DNA from: an uncultured Chloroflexota bacterium
Lineage (GTDB): Bacteria > Chloroflexota > Anaerolineae > Anaerolineales > Anaerolineaceae
Reading direction: 5' to 3'
Length of the DNA: 20,745 bases
NCBI GenBank assembly: GCA_902795255.1
Contig: CADBKS010000026.1
Span: 1 to 20,745 of the forward strand
The translations under genes and the position numbers were made by a program. Below, in pieces: positions 1,035 to 20,745 of the stretch (within the stretch, counting starts at the first letter, position 1; the number at the start of each line of letters is the position of its first letter). A model generated the notes under the pieces. It saw only the letters and a list, made by a program, of their open reading frames with translations, was not told where the DNA came from and searched no databases.

Positions 1035-1808
1035 TCACATCGCGGTGTAGCCGCCGTCGACCGGGAGGTTGACGCCGGTCACATAGGAAGACTTCGGGGA
1101 AGCGAGGAACAGCGCGGCTGTGTCCAGTTCGCCTTCTTCACCGTAGCGTTCTTCCGGGATCATGGTCTTGGCGTTCTGCTGGAAGAAGTCGGAGTTGAGG
1201 GTGTCGCGGGTCAGATCGGTGTAGAAGTAGCCCGGGCAGATGGAGTTGACGGTGATGCCGTATTTGCCCCATTCGGCTGCCAGTGCGCGGGTCATGTTGA
1301 CGACGCCGCCTTTTGCCGCGTGGTAGGGAGCGGAACCGGCGATTTTGTTGCCGACCAGACCGTACATGGAGGCGATATTGATGATGCGGCCGTATTTCGC
1401 GGGGATCATGGCTTTCTTGGCGACAGCGCGGGCAACGCGGAAGGAGCCGAAGAGGTCGATGTTCATTTCGTTCCCGAACTGTTCGTCGGTGATATCTTCA
1501 GCCGGGGCGACTGCGCCGGTGCCGGCATTGTTGACCAGGACATCGATGCGTCCGAGTTTTTCGAGGACGGTATCGACCATGGCATTGACAGCTTCCGTAT
1601 CGGTAATGTCGCAGCGGACTGCGAGTGTGGGAACATTGTATTCTTCAGCGATTTCTTTGGCGACTGCATCGATCATGTTCTGACGGCGCGCGACCGCGAC
1701 GATCCCGCAGCCCTGGCTGGCGAGGGCTTTTGCCATCTGGACACCGAGTCCGGTGGAACATCCGGTCACTACAGCGACCCGACCGGTAAGATCAAAATAG
1801 TTCTTCAT
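1035..1808 (-). CDS. Classical short-chain dehydrogenase/reductase (gluconate 5-dehydrogenase-like)
   Basis: A 257-residue NAD(P)-dependent oxidoreductase of the classical SDR family. It has the cofactor motif TGCSTGLG at residues 15-22, NNAG at 93-96, the catalytic Ser147 (INIASMYG) and Y162-x-x-x-K166. The C-terminal PVDGGYTA motif is typical of classical SDRs, which are tetrameric. The sequence style is closest to gluconate 5-dehydrogenase and 3-oxoacyl-ACP-reductase-like enzymes, but the substrate cannot be fixed from sequence. An upstream in-frame ATG at 1844 exists, but the ATG at 1808 follows AGGAG at correct spacing and gives the usual SDR N-terminus, so I chose it. It is transcribed alone and convergent with yerC. 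Confidence 0.9.
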   Translation of the reverse strand: MKNYFDLTGRVAVVTGCSTGLGVQMAKALASQGCGIVAVARRQNMIDAVAKEIAEEYNVPTLAVRCDITDTEAVNAMVDTVLEKLGRIDVLVNNAGTGAVAPAEDITDEQFGNEMNIDLFGSFRVARAVAKKAMIPAKYGRIINIASMYGLVGNKIAGSAPYHAAKGGVVNMTRALAAEWGKYGITVNSICPGYFYTDLTRDTLNSDFFQQNAKTMIPEERYGEEGELDTAALFLASPKSSYVTGVNLPVDGGYTAM

Positions 1809-1859
1809 TAAATAACTCCTGTATTTTGTTTGATAAAGCAGCATCTGCCGCTTCTTCTA

Positions 1860-3633: not shown

Positions 3634-4199
3634 GTATCGGGGTGAGGCTTTTTCTGCTGTTTCTGAAAATCGGCATCACCTGTTTCGGCGGGGGATACGG
3701 CATGATGTCCATGATCTTTGATGAAGGCGCGAAGCTGGTCGGCCTGACGGCGGAAGAATTCGCGGATATGACCGCGCTGGACCTGATCTGTCCCGGCCCG
3801 GTCGCGCTCAATTCCGCGACCTATGTCGGATACATCAAGGGCGGTGTTTCCGGTTCTGTTCTCGCGACCGCGGGCATGATCCTTCCGACCGTGATCGTCA
3901 GCATCCTTGCTGTGATTTTTATGAGCAGATTTTCCGAAAACCGGATCGTAAAGGGCCTGTTCCGCGGGATCCGGCCGGCCTGCGGCGGTTTGCTGATCTA
4001 TACTTCGGTCAGCCTGCTGCTGAATGTCTTTTTCGGGACGGAGTCTGTTTCCGCAATTACCATGCCCACGCTGAGTGCTGATCTTGCTGCCATGCTCGGG
4101 CTTTTTGTGCTCGCTGTTATTCTGGTGTTCCGTTATAAGATCGATCCGATCCTTCTTACCGTGATCGGTGCGGTATTCGGACTGGTTTTCCTGCGTTGA
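3630..4199 (+). CDS. CHR-family chromate transporter subunit, second of a pair
   Basis: A 189-residue CHR-domain membrane protein paired with the preceding gene. It has the CHR hallmark CFGGGYGM at residues 18-25, a KLVGLTAEEFADM loop, and PGPVALNSATYVGY at about residues 54-67, the conserved PGP motif of the family. About five to six hydrophobic helices follow. The start is set by the ATGA overlap with the previous stop and an AAGGAAGAG site upstream. The pair probably folds as a two-subunit version of the 400-residue, two-domain ChrA. Chromate as the physiological substrate is uncertain. Confidence 0.88.
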   Translation: MSIGVRLFLLFLKIGITCFGGGYGMMSMIFDEGAKLVGLTAEEFADMTALDLICPGPVALNSATYVGYIKGGVSGSVLATAGMILPTVIVSILAVIFMSRFSENRIVKGLFRGIRPACGGLLIYTSVSLLLNVFFGTESVSAITMPTLSADLAAMLGLFVLAVILVFRYKIDPILLTVIGAVFGLVFLR

Positions 4200-4206
4200 G
4201 GTGCTT

Positions 4207-5694
4207 ATGGAAGAATCAAGACCCGGACTCGGCCTTTTTTTCGTCGCCTTCAGTCTGCTTTTTTTAGCGGGCGTTCTGACCTTTCTGGCTTTTCAGCAGT
4301 ACCGGGCAGTTGAGCCGGTCATTCCTGACGGTTCCGTGATCGGGAATATTCCCATCGCCGGACTTTCCGCAGATGAGGCAGTTGAACGGGTCCGCTCCGT
4401 TTATGATCTTCCGGTCGATCTGGTCTATCAGGACCAAATCATCCGTCTGCCGGTTTCCGACAGTATCGATTATGACGGTCTGAAAGCGGAGCTTGAGGCC
4501 CGGATCGCGGACCTTTACGAAGGTTTCAGTTTCATCAGCTGGCTTTCCGGAAGGTTCTCCCAGGAACCGATCCGGATCGGACTGACCTTTACCGAACTTC
4601 CGGATTCGGTCCGGGCATATCTTGAAGAAGAGGTCCGCCCGCGTTATGATGTGGTGCCGATGGCGGTCCGGCCCGAGGGAAACTCGTTCCGGGCGGGACA
4701 TGCCGGCAGGATGCTGGACACGGAGGCTTCTCTGGCAGCGATCGATGATGCCCGCCGGTCGGATTCGGACCGGACCGCTGTGCTTACGGTCAATGAACTG
4801 GAGGAACCGGCCGGAAACCTGCAGAACCTTGCCCTGATGCTGCGCTCCGTTACGGATACGTGGCAGGACAGCGGGCAGGTCACGGAGATCTGGCTGAGCG
4901 ATCCCTCCTCCGGACAGAGCTTTGACATCGCCCGCAGGGACCGGGAGGATCTCGCTCCGGAGATCGCTTTTACGGCCGCCAGCACGATGAAGCTCCCGAT
5001 CATGATCTCATCCTATATCCGGATGGATGAAGCGCCGGATGCTTTCACGATGAAGACCCTGCGCCTGATGATCACGGAGTCCAAGAATGACCAGACGGAC
5101 TGGATGATGGAAAATGTGATCGGCGGAGCTCGTGCCCCGATCACGGTGACGGAGGATCTGCAGAAGCTCGGGCTGATGAATTCATTTCTCGCGGGCTATT
5201 TTTATCTCGGCGCTCCGCTGCTGGATGTCGTGCGGACGGAGGCGAATTCCCGCTCGGACATCGATCTGAGACCGGATGTTTACAATCAGACGACTGCAGC
5301 GGATATGGGAACGCTGATGGACGCGCTGTACCGCTGTTCCGAAAATGAGGCTTCGATCCTTACCGAAACTTTTCCCGGACAGATCACACAGGCGGAATGT
5401 GCGGAAATGATCGGCCTGCTGAAAGACAACCACCTGCCGTACCTGATCAGTGCCGGTGTGCCGGACTATATCGCGGTCGCCCATAAACACGGATGGATCG
5501 AGGAAAATGACGGACTGCTCCACACTATGGGGAATATCGCGGCTGTTTATACGCCCGGAGGAGACTATATTCTCAGTATTTATACCTATCATCCGGAAAA
5601 TCTGATTTTTGAGGAAGGCAGTACGCTCTTCGCGCAGATCTCCGCAGCGGTTTTCGGTTTTTTCAACCCGCAGAGGGCGGAAGATACGCTATAA
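4207..5694 (+). CDS. Membrane-anchored class A beta-lactamase-like serine hydrolase
   Basis: A 495-residue protein with an N-terminal membrane helix at about residues 8-30, an extracytoplasmic region at 40-200, and a penicillin-recognising hydrolase domain at about 205-490. The early extracytoplasmic part (NIPIAGLSADEAVERV) resembles the peptidoglycan-binding repeat found in YoaR/VanW-type proteins. The catalytic motifs are S259-T-M-K262, S292-K-N294 and K427-H-G429, in the usual order and spacing. I could not find a clear counterpart of the class A Glu166/ExxLN deacylation motif, so it may be a slow hydrolase, a peptidase-like enzyme or a penicillin-binding protein rather than an antibiotic-resistance enzyme. 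The ATG at 4207 follows GAGGTG; a longer in-frame start at 4168 would overlap the CHR gene and lacks support. Confidence 0.8.
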   Translation: MEESRPGLGLFFVAFSLLFLAGVLTFLAFQQYRAVEPVIPDGSVIGNIPIAGLSADEAVERVRSVYDLPVDLVYQDQIIRLPVSDSIDYDGLKAELEARIADLYEGFSFISWLSGRFSQEPIRIGLTFTELPDSVRAYLEEEVRPRYDVVPMAVRPEGNSFRAGHAGRMLDTEASLAAIDDARRSDSDRTAVLTVNELEEPAGNLQNLALMLRSVTDTWQDSGQVTEIWLSDPSSGQSFDIARRDREDLAPEIAFTAASTMKLPIMISSYIRMDEAPDAFTMKTLRLMITESKNDQTDWMMENVIGGARAPITVTEDLQKLGLMNSFLAGYFYLGAPLLDVVRTEANSRSDIDLRPDVYNQTTAADMGTLMDALYRCSENEASILTETFPGQITQAECAEMIGLLKDNHLPYLISAGVPDYIAVAHKHGWIEENDGLLHTMGNIAAVYTPGGDYILSIYTYHPENLIFEEGSTLFAQISAAVFGFFNPQRAEDTL

Positions 5695-8103: not shown

Positions 8104-8757
8104 TCAGAGATATTCTTTCAGGTTGTGTTCAACAGCGTAAGCGGCTGCTTCGGCCCGGTTGCTGGCGCCCAGTTTGGAAAGGATGCTGCTGACATAGTTG
8201 CGGACCGTCCCTTCACCGAGGAACAGGGATTTTGCGATCTCGCGGTTCGTTTTTCCTTCGGAGACGAGGATCAGGACGTGTTTTTCCTGCTGGCTGAGGA
8301 TCGCGAATGCGGAGGCTTCTTCCTCCTTGACCGCCCGGCGGACTTCCTGGAAGACGCGCTGGGTGACCATCGGGTCCAGCAGGGCGTCGCCCCGGCGGAC
8401 GGACTCCAGCGAATGGATCAGGTCCTCGCTGTTGATCTGTTTGAGCAGGTAACCGGAGGCACCGGCGCGGATCGCGGAAAACAGCATTTCATCTTCTGCG
8501 TATGACGTGAGCATGACGACCCGCACTTCAGGATATAATTGAGTAATCTCCTCGCAGGCTTCGATGCCGGATGCCCCGGGGAGGCGGATATCCATCAATA
8601 CGATGTCCGGGCGGAACTTACCGGTGATTTCGACAGCTTCTTTTGCGTTGTTGGCCTCGCCGACGACTTCGAAATGATCGCTCTGTTCCAGGAGAACCTT
8701 CAGACCTAAACGAACTACTTCGTGGTCATCAACTAAAACGATGCGCATTTTTGACAT
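8104..8757 (-). CDS. NarL/LuxR-family response regulator
   Basis: A 217-residue two-domain transcription regulator. The receiver domain (residues 1-120) has the acidic pair Asp10/Asp11, phospho-acceptor Asp56 (VLMDIRLPG), Thr84 (VMLTSY) and Lys106 (YLLK), so phosphorylation chemistry is intact. The C-terminal LuxR-type helix-turn-helix (about 153-215) carries [39 protein letters not shown] and AAAYA. This resembles DevR/LiaR-type regulators. The start follows AGGAG at 9 nt. No histidine kinase gene lies in the window, so it is an orphan here. The upstream region contains several TGACA/TGTCA half-sites that could be its own operator. Confidence 0.93.
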
Positions 8758-11366: not shown

Positions 11367-12500
11367 ATGATGAAAAATAATCCTCATTTTCCGGAAATTC
11401 ACGGTAAATTCGGCTTCGGATGCATGCGTCTGCCGATGACGGAGCAAAAAACGGTCGATCTGGAACAGACAAAGCAGATGATCGATGAATTTTTGGCGGC
11501 CGGGTTCAATTATTTTGATACGGCCCATCCTTATATCGGCAAACAGAGCGAACCGGCGCTCCGGGAGTGCCTGACCTCAAGGTATCCGCGGGAAAGCTTC
11601 CTCCTGGCGGATAAAATGTCCTCTTCTTTCTTCAATTCCGAGGAGGATGTGCGGACCCAGTTCCTGAAGCAGCTGGAGATCTGCGGGGTGGACTATTTTG
11701 ATTTCTTCCTGATGCACGCGCTTTCGGCTGAGAATTATGAGAAATATAAGCGCTGCAATGTTTATGAAGTCCTGAAACAGTTCCGCGCGGAGGGGAAGAT
11801 CCGCCATCTCGGTTTTTCATTCCATGATAAGCCGCAGATGCTCGAAAAGATCCTTGAGGATTGTCCGGAGACCGAGTTCGTGCAGCTTCAGTTCAACTAT
11901 ATCGATTATGATGACCCGGTCGTGCAGTCCAAAGCCTGCTATGATGTCTGCGAAAAATACGGGAAGCCTGTTGTCGTGATGGAACCGGTCAAGGGCGGTA
12001 CGCTGGTCGATCTGCCGCCGGTGGGTAAGGCGGCGTTTGAACAGCTCGGAACGGGGAAAAGCACCGCTTCCTACGCGCTGCGGTTCGCAGCCGGTTTTGA
12101 CAATATTGCCGTGGTGCTCTCCGGAATGAGCAGCATTGAACAGATGCGGGACAACATCCGCGCGATGGCGGAATTCGAACCGCTGAATGCGGCCGAGAAC
12201 GCAGCGGTCGAAAAGGCGCGGGATTCGATCCGGTCGCTCGGGACGATCGCGTGCACCGGCTGCCGCTACTGCACGGAAGTCTGCCCGCAGGACATCATCA
12301 TTCCCGACATCATGTCGATCCTGAATATGAAAAAGATGTACGCGGACGGCGGAAACTCCTGGTATTACTGGACGCTGATCCAGGGACACGGAAAGGCTTC
12401 CGACTGTCTGAAGTGCGGAGCCTGTGAAGCACAGTGCCCGCAGCATCTCCCGATCCGCAGCCTGCTTGAGGAAGCGGTAGAGAAGGTCGAAAAGGCCTGA
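11367..12500 (+). CDS. Aldo/keto reductase with C-terminal 2x[4Fe-4S] domain
   Basis: A 377-residue oxidoreductase. The N-terminal TIM barrel (about 10-280) has the aldo/keto reductase catalytic tetrad Asp51, Tyr56, Lys83 and His117. The C-terminal domain holds two ferredoxin-type motifs, Cys296-x2-Cys299-x2-Cys302-x3-Cys306 and Cys347-x2-Cys350-x2-Cys353-x3-Cys357, each followed by Pro-Gln. This fusion is common in strict anaerobes and suggests electron exchange with ferredoxin-like partners instead of, or as well as, NAD(P)H. The substrate is unknown. The first of two adjacent ATG codons is chosen because AGGAG lies 8 nt before it. The gene is divergent from DUF134 and ends at the terminator at 12532-12559. 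Confidence 0.92.
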   Translation: MMKNNPHFPEIHGKFGFGCMRLPMTEQKTVDLEQTKQMIDEFLAAGFNYFDTAHPYIGKQSEPALRECLTSRYPRESFLLADKMSSSFFNSEEDVRTQFLKQLEICGVDYFDFFLMHALSAENYEKYKRCNVYEVLKQFRAEGKIRHLGFSFHDKPQMLEKILEDCPETEFVQLQFNYIDYDDPVVQSKACYDVCEKYGKPVVVMEPVKGGTLVDLPPVGKAAFEQLGTGKSTASYALRFAAGFDNIAVVLSGMSSIEQMRDNIRAMAEFEPLNAAENAAVEKARDSIRSLGTIACTGCRYCTEVCPQDIIIPDIMSILNMKKMYADGGNSWYYWTLIQGHGKASDCLKCGACEAQCPQHLPIRSLLEEAVEKVEKA

Positions 12501-15376: not shown

Positions 15377-15557
15377 AGGCATCCGCCCCAATATGTGCAA
15401 AACAGGCAAATGAAAACGGGCGGAAAGCCCGGCAGACCGGTGCGGCTGCCGGCTCATGTGGACTCACGTGCGGCTGTGTACGTGGCAGCGTGAGCGCTTA
15501 AAACGGAATGCCTTATGCCGGAAACGGCATGAAATATATGATTTTCACGGGAGGTTT
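15377..15557 (+). promoter_or_regulatory. Structured 5' leader of the glyA-gcvT fusion gene
   Basis: The leader holds three simple hairpins: CCGGCAG (15429-15435) with CTGCCGG (15446-15452); CTCACG (15463-15468) with CGTGAG (15489-15494); and ATGCCG (15515-15520) with CGGCAT (15525-15530), closed by a GAAA tetraloop. The last sits about 20 nt before the GGGAGG ribosome binding site. I compared it by eye with the glycine, THF and ZTP riboswitch consensus sequences and do not see their conserved cores. It may be an uncharacterised regulatory leader. Confidence 0.45.
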
Positions 15558-18500
15558 ATGGACAACTATTTGTTTCAGGGAAAGCTTGTCGATGTCGATG
15601 AGGCTGTGGCCCGCATCATCGAGCTTGAAGAAGAACGGCAGAAACGGAAACTGATCATGATCGCGAGCGAATCCTTCGCTCCGGAATCGATCCGCGAATC
15701 CCTCGGCTCTGTGTTTCAGAACGTGTATGCGGAAGGCTATCCGGACGAAGCCACCCGTAAGATGAGCGAGAAGGAGATCCTGGACCTGGACTACAGCCTC
15801 GGGAATTTCCGCCGCAATTCCGACCCGCGCTACTATAAGGGTGTGGAATATGTGGACGTTCTCGAAGCGCTTGCCCGCCGCCGCTGCGCGGAGGTGTTCG
15901 CCAATGACCGGGTCCCGGCCGATAAGATCCAGGTGAACGTTCAGCCGCTTTCCGGCGCTCCTGCGAACAACGCCGCTTATCATATTATTGAACCGGGTGA
16001 CACGGTCCTGGCGATGGATCTGCTCCATGGCGGACATCTGAGCCACGGGTCACCGGTCAACCGGACCGGGATGCTTTACAACATCGTCCACTATACGGTG
16101 GATCCGGAAACGGAGATGCTCGATTATGACGAGCTCCAGCGCCTGGCACTGGAGCATAAGCCGAAAATGATCATCTGCGGTTATACATCCTATCCGTATA
16201 TTCCGGACTGGAAACGCTACCGTGAGATCGCGGATTCCGTCGGCGCGTACCTGCTGGCGGATATCGCCCACATCGCGGGCCTTGTGGCTGCCGGTGTGGT
16301 GGAGAGCCCGGTCGGATACGCGGATGTGGTCTCCTTCACGACACACAAGACGATCACCGGGCCGCGCGGGGCGGTCCTGCTGACGACGGATCCGAAGATC
16401 AGCAAGATCATTGACAAAGCGGTTTTCCCCGGTGAGCAGGGCGGTCCGCACACGCAGGTGTTCGCGGCGCTTTCTACGATTTTCAAACTGGCAAAGACCC
16501 CTGAATACCGCGCGTATCAGGCGCAGATCCTCAAAAATACGCAGGCACTGGTGGCGGAGTTCAAGGCCCGCGGTCTGAAGGTCCCTTATCAGGGCTCCAA
16601 CAGCCACATGCTCCTGCTGGACTGCAAGGCGGTGAAAGGGGAGGACGGCACTTACCTTTCCGGTGATATCGCCGCCCGTGTGCTGGACATTATCGGCATC
16701 GTGCTGAACCGCAACACGATCCCGGGCGACATGTCCGCCCTGAAGGCCAGCGGTATCCGCATGGGCACCGCCTGTGTCACGCAGATCGGGCTGAAGGAAG
16801 ATGACATGAAGGAGATCGCCGACATCATTGCCGACGTCCTCTATGCCTTCCATCCGTACGCCATGCCCGGCGCGAAATCCATGCTCCAGCGGGCCCGGGT
16901 CGATTTTGACGTTATTGAAAACGCCAAACTCCGCGTCCGTGCGCTGACCGAAAAATGCACGGAACTCAGTGAAGATCCGAAGTTCGGATATCCGAATTTC
17001 TATTACATTGACGACAAGTTCAAGACTGTTAAGGGCAAAGCCCATCTGCTGATCCATGGCGGCAATTACCGTGAGTTCGTAAATTATGCTTTCCTCAGTG
17101 ACGCGGAAGCGCTTTCCGAGGGCGAAGAGCAGGATACGGTCCTTTCCATCGATGGAAATGAGATCAGCGGTACGCTGATGCTCCGCCCGGACGGTTTCCA
17201 GTTCAGCTGCAAAGCGGAGGAAGCCGGCGCGGCGGCAGCCTGGCTGCGCGATCTTTCCGACGGCTTCGTGAAGTTCGATCAGGATCTGCGCAAGCGTCTG
17301 CCGGGACCGGTTTATGTGGAAGAATGCAAACCGGCGGAAGGAAAACCCTGCGGAGCGCCGTCCTTCACGAAGGCTTATGCGGTCGGAATGTCCCCGGATG
17401 AGGGAACACCGCTTCCGGAGTTTGATTTCAGCGCCTATGATGAGGACGAGAACGCCCCGATCAAGCGGACGCCGCTTTATGAGACGCACAAAGCGCTCGG
17501 CGCGAAGATGGTCCCGTTTGCCGGCTGGGATATGCCTGTCTGGTATACCTCCATCAAGGAGGAGCATAATGCCTGCCGTCAGGCCGGCGGTCTCTTCGAT
17601 GTCTCCCACATGGGTGTCTATGAGGCCAACGGTGCCGACGCGCTGCCTTTCCTGGACAGTGTCTGCGCCAATGACATCAGTGTCCTGGCTGTGGGCGACA
17701 CGATCTATACCCACTTCCTGGATCCGGACGCGAATGTGATCGACGACCTGATCATCTACCGGACCGGTGAGGAGAAATATCTCATCGTTGTCAATGCGTC
17801 CAATAATGACAAGGACTGGGCCTGGCTGAATGCGGTCCGCGAAGGGAAGGTCCTGGTGGACCGCAGCCGTCCTTCCGCCCGGGCATTCGGCCGGAACGTG
17901 ACGCTCGAAAACCTGCGCGACCCGAAGGCGGGCGACCGGATGCGTGTAGACCTTGCCCTGCAGGGCCGGATCTCGATCCAGGTCCTGACCGCGCTGGGCT
18001 GTTCCGAAGAAGACGCACAGAAGATCAAAACCCTGAAGAAGGGCTGTGTGACGCATGCGGTGGTCGGCGGTTTCGACCTCTATCTGGCCCGCACCGGTTA
18101 TACCGGCGAAAAGATCTCCTTTGAGCTCTTTGTCCATCCGGATAAACTCACGGATCTCTGGAACCGTCTGCTGGAAGCCGGCGCCCCGCTGGGCCTGAAA
18201 CCCTGCGGTCTGGGTGCCCGCGACAGCCTGCGCACGGAAGCCGGACTGCCGCTTTACGGTCATGAGATGGCCGGCGATATGGGCATCAAGGTGAATGAGG
18301 CCGGGTTCCATTCTTCGGTCAAGACCTATAAGTGCTGGTTCATCGGACGGGATGCCTACCGAAAGGATGAGGCGGCCCAGAAGGTGACTGCGGTCCGCTT
18401 CCGCTTCAACGACCAGGTCGTCCGCATGGCGCATCATGGGGATCCGGTCCTGGATCTGAAGGGAAAGGTGATCGGACATGTCACCAGCTGCGCGATGGAT

Positions 18501-18686
18501 AAGGATGGCTGGGTGACCGGCCTGGCGCTGGTCGACCGCAAGTGCAATGCGGAAGGCACCCAGATCCTGATCTATCAGAACGCGGAAAAGGCGAACCTGA
18601 AGTCGCCGTCCGGACTGAAGTTCGGCGAAAAAGCGGTGCTCCCGGGTGCCGCGACGATCCTCAGCCGCTTCCCGAAGCTCAGCTGA
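15558..18686 (+). CDS. Fused serine hydroxymethyltransferase-aminomethyltransferase (GlyA-GcvT)
   Basis: A 1042-residue fusion. Residues 1-440 are serine hydroxymethyltransferase, which interconverts serine and glycine with tetrahydrofolate: NVQPLSGAPANNAAY (127-141), ADIAH (234-238), the PLP lysine Lys264 in TTHKT, GEQGGPH (292-298) and RMGTA (401-405). Residues about 635-1042 are the glycine-cleavage T protein, which releases ammonia from the aminomethyl-lipoyl H protein and makes methylene-THF: PFAGWDMPVWY (653-663), DVSHMG (681-686), VIDDLIIY with folate-binding Asp729/730, and a GLGARDSLRTEAGLPLYG stretch. Between EGYP and RYYKG (63-91) is a 28-residue insertion absent from E. coli GlyA. 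Residues 495-576 look like a degenerate T-protein copy. The ATG at 15558 follows GGGAGG; the longer frame from 15456 has no support. gcvH and gcvP are not in the window. Confidence 0.92.
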   Translation: MDNYLFQGKLVDVDEAVARIIELEEERQKRKLIMIASESFAPESIRESLGSVFQNVYAEGYPDEATRKMSEKEILDLDYSLGNFRRNSDPRYYKGVEYVDVLEALARRRCAEVFANDRVPADKIQVNVQPLSGAPANNAAYHIIEPGDTVLAMDLLHGGHLSHGSPVNRTGMLYNIVHYTVDPETEMLDYDELQRLALEHKPKMIICGYTSYPYIPDWKRYREIADSVGAYLLADIAHIAGLVAAGVVESPVGYADVVSFTTHKTITGPRGAVLLTTDPKISKIIDKAVFPGEQGGPHTQVFAALSTIFKLAKTPEYRAYQAQILKNTQALVAEFKARGLKVPYQGSNSHMLLLDCKAVKGEDGTYLSGDIAARVLDIIGIVLNRNTIPGDMSALKASGIRMGTACVTQIGLKEDDMKEIADIIADVLYAFHPYAMPGAKSMLQRARVDFDVIENAKLRVRALTEKCTELSEDPKFGYPNFYYIDDKFKTVKGKAHLLIHGGNYREFVNYAFLSDAEALSEGEEQDTVLSIDGNEISGTLMLRPDGFQFSCKAEEAGAAAAWLRDLSDGFVKFDQDLRKRLPGPVYVEECKPAEGKPCGAPSFTKAYAVGMSPDEGTPLPEFDFSAYDEDENAPIKRTPLYETHKALGAKMVPFAGWDMPVWYTSIKEEHNACRQAGGLFDVSHMGVYEANGADALPFLDSVCANDISVLAVGDTIYTHFLDPDANVIDDLIIYRTGEEKYLIVVNASNNDKDWAWLNAVREGKVLVDRSRPSARAFGRNVTLENLRDPKAGDRMRVDLALQGRISIQVLTALGCSEEDAQKIKTLKKGCVTHAVVGGFDLYLARTGYTGEKISFELFVHPDKLTDLWNRLLEAGAPLGLKPCGLGARDSLRTEAGLPLYGHEMAGDMGIKVNEAGFHSSVKTYKCWFIGRDAYRKDEAAQKVTAVRFRFNDQVVRMAHHGDPVLDLKGKVIGHVTSCAMDKDGWVTGLALVDRKCNAEGTQILIYQNAEKANLKSPSGLKFGEKAVLPGAATILSRFPKLS

Positions 18687-18713
18687 GGTCTGTGGTCTTT
18701 GTTGAAATAACGT

Positions 18714-18745
18714 GCCGGGGCGGCAATGCTGCCCCGGCCTTTTTA
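18714..18745 (+). terminator. Intrinsic terminator after glyA-gcvT
   Basis: GCCGGGGC (18714-18721) is exactly complementary to GCCCCGGC (18731-18738) and is followed by CTTTTTAT. This ends the fusion transcript before the next promoter. Confidence 0.88.
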
Positions 18746-18827
18746 TATCAAAACGGTGCAGTGCCGGAATCAGCCCTGTTCCGCAAAACTTCCTAATAAT
18801 ATCTTTGTCCCCTTTGACGCTTTCATC

Positions 18828-18836
18828 TGATATACT
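18828..18836 (+). promoter_or_regulatory. Extended -10 promoter of the oxoamine synthase gene
   Basis: TGATATACT is a TGn extended -10 with TATACT (5 of 6). TTGTCC (18805-18810) is a possible but distant -35 (20 bp); TTGACG (18814-18819) is closer to consensus but only 11 bp away. The predicted leader is about 65 nt. Confidence 0.45.
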
Positions 18837-18908
18837 TTTTGTGAATTTAAACGCAATTTACCGGTGAGATCGATTTCGCATTTCGCTGCGCAGATAAAGG
18901 GTTAATCA

Positions 18909-20084
18909 ATGATCGATATTTTTGAAAAATGTGCAAAACGTGCCATTCAGGATGACCTCCGCGACCAGGGGATCTACCCCTATTTCCACTACCTGGAGAC
19001 CCGCCAGGCTCCTGAAGTGATCATGGAAGGCAAACGCCGCATCATGCTGGGCTCCAACAACTACCTTGGCCTGACGACGAATCCCGAAGTGATGGAAGCC
19101 GCCATCAAAGCCGTCGAACAGTTCGGCACCGGCTGCTCCGGTTCCCGTTTCCTGAACGGGACGCTCAAGCTCCATCTGGAACTTGAAGAAGAGCTGGCGG
19201 ATTTTCTGCATAAGGAAGCCGTCATCACCTTCCCGTCCGGTTTCCAGTCCAATCTCGGCATCATCAGCGCGCTGGTCGGCCGCAATGACTATGTGATTCT
19301 GGATCGCGAAGATCATGCCTCGATCTATGACGCGGCCCGGCTCGGCTGGGGCAAAATGCTCCGCTATCATCACGACAATATGCAGGAGCTGGAACAGTGC
19401 CTGCAGCAGGTCCCGGAAGACCGCGGCTGCCTGGTCGTGACGGACGGTGTCTTCTCCATGAGCGGCGGGATCGCCAATCTGCCGGAGATCTGCCGCCTCG
19501 CAAAACAGTACGGTGCCCGGGTGATGGTCGATGACGCGCACGGTCTCGGCGTTCTCGGTGAAGGCGGCCGCGGTACGGCCAATTATTACGGTCTTGAGGA
19601 TGAAGTTGATATCTATATGGGTACCTTCAGCAAATCCCTGGCGAGCCTCGGCGGTTATATGGCCGGCAAAGCCCGCATTGTGGATTTCGTCAAGCATAAC
19701 TCCCGCCCCTTCATGTTCGCTGCCTCCATCCCGCCGGCTCAGGCTGCTGCCGCACTGGCATCCCTGCGTTATCTGAAGGCCCATCCGGAACTGGTCTCCC
19801 ATCTGAACAGCCTGGCAGACCGCTTCCGCTCACAGCTGAAGGAAAAAGGGCTGGAGATCATTGAAGCCAAGACGCCGATCGTCCCGATCTTCACCTATGA
19901 AGCCTACCGGACGCTCGAAAAATGCCGCAGGATCTATGACGGCGGTGTTTATGTCAACTCCGTGCTGCCGCCTGCCGCTCCGGAAGGCGAATGTATGATC
20001 CGCACCAGCCTGATGGCTTCCCTGACCGATGCACTGGTCGATGAAGCTGCCGGCATCATTGCGGAGGCGATCAACAATGACTGA
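18909..20084 (+). CDS. Alpha-oxoamine synthase, serine palmitoyltransferase-like
   Basis: A 391-residue PLP enzyme of the alpha-oxoamine synthase family, which condenses an amino acid with an acyl-CoA and releases CO2. Motifs: GSNNYLGLT (48-56), SGSRFLNGT (77-85), DHASIYD with stacking His136, VDDAHG (207-212), PLP lysine Lys242 in GTFSKSLASLGG, and a late YVNSVLPPAAPEGE-MIRTS stretch. From memory, bacterial serine palmitoyltransferases (Bacteroides, Sphingomonas) share the N-terminal GVYPYF-like motif, GSRFLNGT, RNDY-I--D--DHASI, GTFSKSLAS and the VNP-PPA end, whereas KBL has a YPVVPKG-type end. I therefore favour serine palmitoyltransferase (L-serine plus acyl-CoA to 3-ketosphinganine). KBL (2-amino-3-ketobutyrate CoA ligase) or BioF remain possible. 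The next gene overlaps by 8 bases. No usual Shine-Dalgarno beyond AAAGGG is present. Confidence 0.8.
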   Translation: MIDIFEKCAKRAIQDDLRDQGIYPYFHYLETRQAPEVIMEGKRRIMLGSNNYLGLTTNPEVMEAAIKAVEQFGTGCSGSRFLNGTLKLHLELEEELADFLHKEAVITFPSGFQSNLGIISALVGRNDYVILDREDHASIYDAARLGWGKMLRYHHDNMQELEQCLQQVPEDRGCLVVTDGVFSMSGGIANLPEICRLAKQYGARVMVDDAHGLGVLGEGGRGTANYYGLEDEVDIYMGTFSKSLASLGGYMAGKARIVDFVKHNSRPFMFAASIPPAQAAAALASLRYLKAHPELVSHLNSLADRFRSQLKEKGLEIIEAKTPIVPIFTYEAYRTLEKCRRIYDGGVYVNSVLPPAAPEGECMIRTSLMASLTDALVDEAAGIIAEAINND

Positions 20085-20745
20085 AAAGATCGCCATCGTG
20101 ACCGGGGGAACCTCCGGGATCGGGCTCTGCACGGCGGCCGCGCTGCAGAAACAGGGCTGTAAGGTCTATACCATCAGCCGGCGTGATTTCAGCGATTCGC
20201 GCTTTACGCATATCCGTGCCGATGTCACCGATCCGGAAGCCGCGGAACAGGCGGTCCGGCAGGTCAAAGAGGCAGAGGGGCGGATCGATATCGTCGTGAA
20301 CTGTGCCGGGTACGGGATCTCCGGAGCGATCGAATTTACCCCCGCGGAAGACGCGAAACGTCAGATGGATGTGAATTTCTTCGGTATGGTGAACGTGAAC
20401 AAGCCCGCGCTCACCATCATGCGCGAACAGGGCGGCGGACGGATCGTCAACACCAGCTCCATGGCTGCGGTTTTCGCGATCCCCTTCCAGGCTTACTATT
20501 CTGCCTCGAAGGCCGCCATCAACAGCTACACCTGCGCGCTGATCAACGAAGTAAAGCCCTATAACATCACCGTCTGCGCGGTCCAGCCCGGCGACATCAA
20601 GACCGGATTTACCGCCGCACGGAAAAAGATCGAAGACGGCAATGAAGCTTACGGCGGACGGATCGTCCGTTCGGTCGCGAAGATGGAAAAGGATGAACAG
20701 ACCGGCCTGGATCCGCAGAAGGCCGGGAATTTTATCGCCAAGGTC
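20077..20745 (+). CDS. Short-chain dehydrogenase, candidate 3-ketosphinganine reductase (partial)
   Basis: The first 223 residues of a classical SDR that runs off the right edge. It has the NAD(P)-binding TGGTSGIG at residues 9-16, NCAG at 75-78, the catalytic Ser127/128 (NTSSMAA) and Tyr141-x-x-x-Lys145. PGDIKTGF at about 171-178 is in the usual substrate-loop position. The ATG at 20077 lies 8 bases inside the preceding gene, behind GGAGG at 9 nt, so the two are co-translated. By context it may reduce the beta-keto product of the preceding enzyme, as KDSR does in sphingolipid synthesis. SDR sequence alone does not prove a substrate; a threonine-dehydrogenase-like or general reductase role is possible. 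Confidence 0.85.
   Translation, partial: MTEKIAIVTGGTSGIGLCTAAALQKQGCKVYTISRRDFSDSRFTHIRADVTDPEAAEQAVRQVKEAEGRIDIVVNCAGYGISGAIEFTPAEDAKRQMDVNFFGMVNVNKPALTIMREQGGGRIVNTSSMAAVFAIPFQAYYSASKAAINSYTCALINEVKPYNITVCAVQPGDIKTGFTAARKKIEDGNEAYGGRIVRSVAKMEKDEQTGLDPQKAGNFIAKV

Follow-up and report, generated by a model that had tools for sequence, protein, structure and literature searches.

Serine palmitoyltransferase (SPT) and 3-ketodihydrosphingosine reductase (KdsR) are known enzymes. Sphingolipid production in the gut is credited mainly to Bacteroidota (PMC10865984). SPT-like genes in Anaerolineae are already published, with Spt-like proteins reported from 218 Chloroflexota metagenome-assembled genomes (MAGs) of the Black Sea, Anaerolineae named among them (PMC11334938). 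A preliminary description of the DNA studied here had called such lipids little described in Bacillota or Chloroflexota, which is partly right but has to be read beside those 218 genomes. The subject of this report is a pair of overlapping genes at the right-hand end of the window, the name used for the whole 20,745-nucleotide stretch of contig CADBKS010000026.1 that was analyzed. Gene 1 codes for an SPT-like protein and gene 2 for a short-chain dehydrogenase/reductase (SDR). With a probability of roughly 0.8, the pair is predicted to supply the first two steps of sphingoid-base synthesis and to have been acquired from gut Clostridia, replacing a resident gene.

Gene 1 occupies positions 18909..20084 of the forward strand. 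The open reading frame (ORF) is intact, with an ATG start and no internal stop, and codes for a 391-amino-acid alpha-oxoamine synthase dependent on pyridoxal phosphate (PLP). Its top profile is the SPT family NF047600 (CFB type, 480.8 bits); the profiles of 2-amino-3-ketobutyrate CoA ligase (KBL) and BioF score 383 and 364 bits. The protein contains the motifs SGSRFLNGT, DHASI, and YVNSVLPPA, and the PLP-lysine motif GTFSKS. A motif table was made from the window, eight of the 80 related loci described below, 15 Anaerolineaceae and 14 Bacteroidota SPT-like proteins, and two SPTs of known structure from the PDB, plus rows for KBL, BioF, and HemA. GSRFLNGT is present in all SPT-like rows except L141 (GSPFLNGT), L067 (GSRFMNGT), and the Sphingomonas SPT (GSRMLNGT). 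The same stretch reads SVRFICG(T/C) in the KBL rows and also differs in the BioF and HemA rows, so the motif match is more than chance.

The active site is of the SPT type. Gene 1 agrees with the Sphingobacterium SPT at 23 of 25 sites (24 of 27 once two further sites are added), and the KBL, BioF, HemA, and SulA-like rows agree at only 12 to 14. Lys242, His136, Asp208, His211, and Arg365 are all present. The predicted structure has the same fold as SPT (PDB 3a2b and 8guh). A clade containing 3a2b and the window is separated from KBL, BioF, and HemA with a support of 98 in a quick tree of 113 rows and 100/100 in a careful tree of 38 rows; a Bacteroides thetaiotaomicron plasmid protein falls just outside this clade in the 113-row tree. 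Profile ranking, tree, active site, and predicted structure thus support an SPT-like rather than a KBL or BioF assignment. The preliminary description had made the same choice, and the protein falls in neither the KBL nor the BioF clade. Gene 1 would condense L-serine with a long-chain acyl thioester (of coenzyme A or acyl carrier protein) on PLP to give 3-ketodihydrosphingosine. Within the SPT clade there is also an alpha-oxoamine synthase from a named Bacillota species, encoded on Priestia megaterium plasmid CP109762 (L145). This SPT-like protein is 48% identical, reads GSRFLNGS, and has 21 of 25 SPT-type sites.

The two sites at which gene 1 departs from the Sphingobacterium enzyme are Ser53, which is Asn51 in the window, and Ala79, which is Ser77. 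They bear on the alternative that survives best, an enzyme of SPT fold that prefers alanine, glycine, or homoserine and makes 1-deoxy or other unusual 2-amino-3-alkanols. For Ala79, a water-mediated contact with the side chain of the substrate has been described. Bacterial SPTs are reported to use alanine and glycine at low efficiency (PMC10196870), complexes of a bacterial SPT with alanine, glycine, and homoserine have been described, and 1-deoxysphingolipids are reported from anoxic Black Sea water (PMC11334938). However, the remaining 23 sites are identical, the residues described around the hydroxyl and carboxylate of serine are all retained (Asn50, Gly78, Ser79, His136, Ser241, and Met269, window numbering), and the change from serine to asparagine yields the residue described for human SPTLC2 at that site. 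This alternative is considered improbable, at about one chance in eight.

Gene 2 begins with the ATG at position 20077 of the forward strand. The window end cuts it at 20745 after 223 codons; the full-length SDR of the related locus L001 has 264 amino acids. The best curated match is the KdsR family NF049977 (231.5 bits over 223 amino acids for the window, 231.8 bits for L001), and the next family scores 174 bits for the window. Both the cofactor motif TGGTSGIG and the active-site motif YSASK (YxxxK) are present. In each of the five closest genomes (G001 to G005, below), the strongest KdsR-family match is the gene that follows the SPT. These comparisons support an SDR most like 3-ketosphinganine reductase, and the earlier suggestion that it could reduce 3-ketosphinganine agrees with the family ranking, though the score is below the family cut-off. 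Gene 2 would reduce the keto group of 3-ketodihydrosphingosine with NAD(P)H to give sphinganine. Reduction directly after condensation would be the order proposed for Bacteroides (PMC9278070), not that described for Caulobacter, where N-acylation comes first (PMC11087976). Any later conversion to ceramide would be a further step. A second SDR-like ORF in the window (1035-1844, reverse strand) is 34% identical to the SDR of the pair and distant from it in the SDR tree.

The last eight bases of gene 1 (20077-20084) are shared with gene 2. A GGAGG sequence inside gene 1 (20063..20067, forward strand) is located nine nucleotides ahead of the SDR start and reads as a likely ribosome-binding site; translation of the two genes is probably coupled. 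The coordinates, the overlap, and the motifs given in the preliminary description were all present in the sequence.

Relatives were collected with patterns drawn from the gene 1 protein, run against 84,980 species genomes. The scan gave 178, and the best 80 loci were kept. An SDR lies directly downstream on the same strand in 55 of these, mostly from gut Clostridia; four others end within 400 bases. Among the 55, L059 has an SDR that matches only weakly (33%), and L062 is cut by a contig end. Pairs were measured in 53 loci and in the window. Of these 54, 43 have overlapping genes, with an overlap of 4 or 8 nucleotides in 33, and the 8-nucleotide overlap is identical in all five closest relatives. 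No other gene recurs at a fixed place within 8 kb of the pair across the loci. Six clostridial SPT-like genes from among the best-scoring of another sample (L174 to L179) have no SDR directly downstream, and the overlapping pair is therefore common but not universal. In four of these six, an SDR of 34-42% identity lies upstream and divergent, an arrangement unlike the overlapping pair. Two Spirochaete MAGs (L067 and L068) carry an SPT-SDR pair whose SPT falls inside the clostridial clade and whose genes overlap by 23 nucleotides with the chosen start; this is possibly another transfer.

The host is a ruminant-gut member of the Anaerolineaceae (Chloroflexota). The five closest loci (L001 to L005) come from five ruminant-gut Anaerolineaceae MAGs (G001 to G005) titled Flexilinea, Anaerolineaceae, or Chloroflexi. 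Two are from goat gut and three are RUG assemblies, which we take to be rumen genomes. Flexilinea belongs taxonomically to the Anaerolineaceae, Chloroflexota. These loci are 92-94% identical to the window in the SPT and 84-88% in the SDR. Two neighboring genes were compared with 17 Anaerolineaceae genomes (family of G001) and with a set of 22 made up of G009 and 21 genomes from the class of G008. For the response regulator at 8104-8757, identity is 74-84% in 16 of the 17 and at most 45% among the matches listed for the 22. The gene upstream of the pair (15456-18686, forward strand) codes for a 1076-amino-acid fusion of serine hydroxymethyltransferase and aminomethyltransferase (SHMT-GcvT). It has a single collinear match of 54-61% in 15 of the 17 (three with internal stops; the other two are partial), and the fusion is found in none of the 22, where the domains are separate. 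The fusion is upstream of the pair in L001 to L004, directly so in L001. The preliminary description had left the genome as Bacillota- or Chloroflexota-like; neighboring genes and closest MAGs settle on Chloroflexota.

Other Anaerolineaceae carry a different SPT-like gene. An alpha-oxoamine synthase was found at E <= 1e-40 in 141 of 147 genomes of the family. The 92-94% version is confined to G001 to G005, each of which has that single alpha-oxoamine synthase at this threshold, and the resident gene was not found in them at E <= 1e-40. Most of the others have two matches among those listed, typically of about 50% and 39% identity. One of the 39% proteins was scanned and passes Kbl/BioF-type cut-offs; the two 50% (resident) proteins that were scanned score best with SPT family NF047600 (534 and 545 bits). 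Identity of the window SPT is about 50% with the SPT-like gene found in other Anaerolineaceae and reaches 72% with Clostridia. The resident gene has a close adjoining SDR in none of 15 loci (L098 to L112); L102 shows a single SDR, a distant one. Next downstream of the resident gene in L098 and L109 comes a gene whose start resembles that of a methyltransferase.

In the careful tree, the ruminant Anaerolineaceae are nested in a gut-Clostridia group (97/94, 99/97, 98/94, and 100/100, with some weaker forks between); a Bacilli and a Spirochaete MAG row are also members of this group. The resident Anaerolineaceae clade is apart (100/100). The SDR tree places the window SDR among clostridial SDRs, with SH-like approximate likelihood-ratio (SH-aLRT) values of 84-90 at the relevant forks. 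Taken with the Anaerolineaceae character of the neighboring genes, the nesting and the separate resident clade point to transfer of the pair and loss of the resident gene. The pair seems to have come from gut Clostridia, a direction read from the nesting. An ancestor of the ruminant-gut Anaerolineaceae would have taken up the unit, and the older resident gene would have been replaced.

It is unlikely, at less than one chance in ten, that there was no transfer and that the pattern reflects vertical inheritance with a phylogenetic artefact, or mis-binned clostridial contigs. The related genomes are MAGs, the supports of the SDR tree are modest, and the group tested by the approximately unbiased (AU) test was named after a first tree had been viewed. 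On the other side, the version is found in five separate MAGs whose neighboring genes match Anaerolineaceae, and forcing all Anaerolineaceae together lowers the log-likelihood by 103 (p-AU 0.0003).

Several observations weigh against the proposed function and origin. Gene 1 misses the 640-bit cut-off of NF047600, which places it outside NCBI's Bacteroidota-type SPT equivalog, although SPT is still its best-scoring family. The SDRs of the window and of L001 both miss the 400-bit cut-off of NF049977. The window clade is sister to the Bacteroidota SPTs in the 38-row tree and contains no characterized enzyme; in the quick tree, the window's group also takes in the Sphingomonas SPT, which agrees at just 17 of the 25 sites and has a very long branch. 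Because neither protein reaches its cut-off and no characterized enzyme falls securely in the immediate clade, we infer the function. Residue matching can also mislead, as a Nostoc protein with SPT-critical residues is reported to give no 3-ketodihydrosphingosine in Escherichia coli and to group with BioF (PMC8895605). Twenty-one of the 80 loci have no adjacent SDR despite room for one. Nine proteins of the right-hand flanks of L001 and L003 included no ceramide synthase or head-group gene, in a comparison not aimed at ceramide synthases. Judged by their titles, nearly all relatives are MAGs. Beside these points stand three SDRs next to over-cut-off Bacteroidota SPTs that also score below the KdsR cut-off (333-359 bits), and 14 control genomes, Bacteroides ihuae among them, none of which passes it. 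Genome searches for two of the 21 loci without an adjacent SDR, L070 and L072, found an SDR of the KdsR family on a different contig in each (210 and 293 bits).

Placement of the window with KBL is rejected only at p-AU 0.0425, a further point on the same side and one that favors a KBL- or BioF-type enzyme beside an unrelated SDR, serving threonine breakdown or biotin synthesis. These enzymes belong to the same superfamily, with the profile scores given above, and gene 1 is the sole alpha-oxoamine synthase in G001 to G005 at the threshold used. The motifs, active site, and tree all disagree with this reading (there is no SVRFICG, and the protein is outside the KBL clade). Tdh and BioB were over cut-off in none of nine genomes, which may be incomplete MAGs and do hold weaker relatives (best 216 and 87 bits). 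Other Anaerolineaceae have a separate gene far from the window's in the tree, one of which passes the Kbl/BioF-type cut-offs, and such an enzyme is given about one chance in twenty. A cysteate acyltransferase of SulA type, for the first step of sulfonolipid synthesis, is very improbable, since the distinguishing Lys281 is Ala272 in gene 1 as in SPT, and the four SulA-like rows that have the lysine (Aureibacter and three from the order of G007) form a distant clade. Sphingoid-base production by the pair is best described as a well-supported prediction and not a demonstration.

A terminator-like hairpin of 11 pairs, 10 of them G-C, followed by a T-run (18714..18738, forward strand; a pattern match only), lies between the SHMT-GcvT gene and the pair. 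It appears to close the upstream gene, and the pair is thus probably its own unit; a scan of 18600-19000 found no sigma-70-like promoter. The domains of the fusion interconvert serine and glycine, and serine is the SPT substrate, but the terminator stands between. The rest of the pathway had been expected to the right. In L001 to L005, the gene to the right of the pair has the opposite orientation, which does not support that continuation, and the nine right-hand proteins showed no obvious lipid gene against Pfam (DUF218, a leucine-rich repeat protein, Wzy_C, InhA-like, GGDEF-EAL, PfkB, two weak matches, and one without a match). Elsewhere on the forward strand, the window codes for an aldo/keto reductase with a fused 4Fe-4S dicluster domain (11367-12500) and a 508-amino-acid protein with a Beta-lactamase2-family domain (4168-5694).

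Two genome samples were searched for SPT-like genes at E <= 1e-135, each with its center genome included. The sample from the class of G008, a MAG titled Clostridia, had them in 39 of 291 genomes, and the sample from the phylum of G001 in 28 of 301. At this threshold, Bacteroides ihuae is the sole match among 14 control genomes. Caulobacter, known to make sphingolipids with another type of SPT, is not matched. Clostridia are not commonly regarded as sphingolipid makers. Provided that these enzymes are SPTs, the candidate gut producers widen to common anaerobic Clostridia and ruminant Chloroflexota. It is an even call whether a coupled SPT and KdsR module circulates in gut Clostridia, has crossed to Spirochaetes and Chloroflexota, and displaced a resident SPT, so that a sizeable minority of gut Clostridia, and not only Bacteroidota, make sphingoid bases or sphingolipids. 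The proposed gain of the pair and loss of the resident gene suggest that retention of the first step is selected for in the ruminant gut. As far as the searches reach, three things are new: the recurring SPT-SDR unit in gut Clostridia, its proposed transfer to ruminant Anaerolineaceae in which the resident gene would have been lost, and how frequent SPT-like genes are in the sampled genomes.

The closest described enzymes are the SPTs of Sphingobacterium multivorum and other Bacteroidota (3a2b, 8guh, and NF047600), with which gene 1 shares 45-47% identity, the fold, 23 of 25 sites, and the GSRFLNGT and GTFSKS motifs. It differs in falling outside the Bacteroidota clade and under the NF047600 cut-off. 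SPTs of the window type are usually paired with an SDR, whereas an SDR lies directly downstream of an over-cut-off SPT in four of 14 Bacteroidota loci within 1.5-kb flanks (order of G007, the genome of L072, titled Paludibacteraceae and taken as Bacteroidota). Gene 2 resembles the 3-ketosphinganine reductase BT_0972 of B. thetaiotaomicron (PMC9278070), compared through the KdsR model, in its best family, TGGTSGIG, and YSASK. BT_0972 is described there as not clustered with the SPT gene BT_0870, whereas the window genes overlap and the score is below the cut-off. The marine Anaerolineae Spt-like proteins (PMC11334938), set beside the window by their description, share phylum, class, and SPT-like character; they are described as BLASTP finds with known Spt sequences in MAGs from an anoxic sea. 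The Caulobacter Spt-bCerS-CerR pathway (PMC11087976) shares the SPT step. Its CerR is described as periplasmic and NDUFA9-like and is proposed to work once N-acylation has taken place, whereas the partner in the window is an SDR of the KdsR type.
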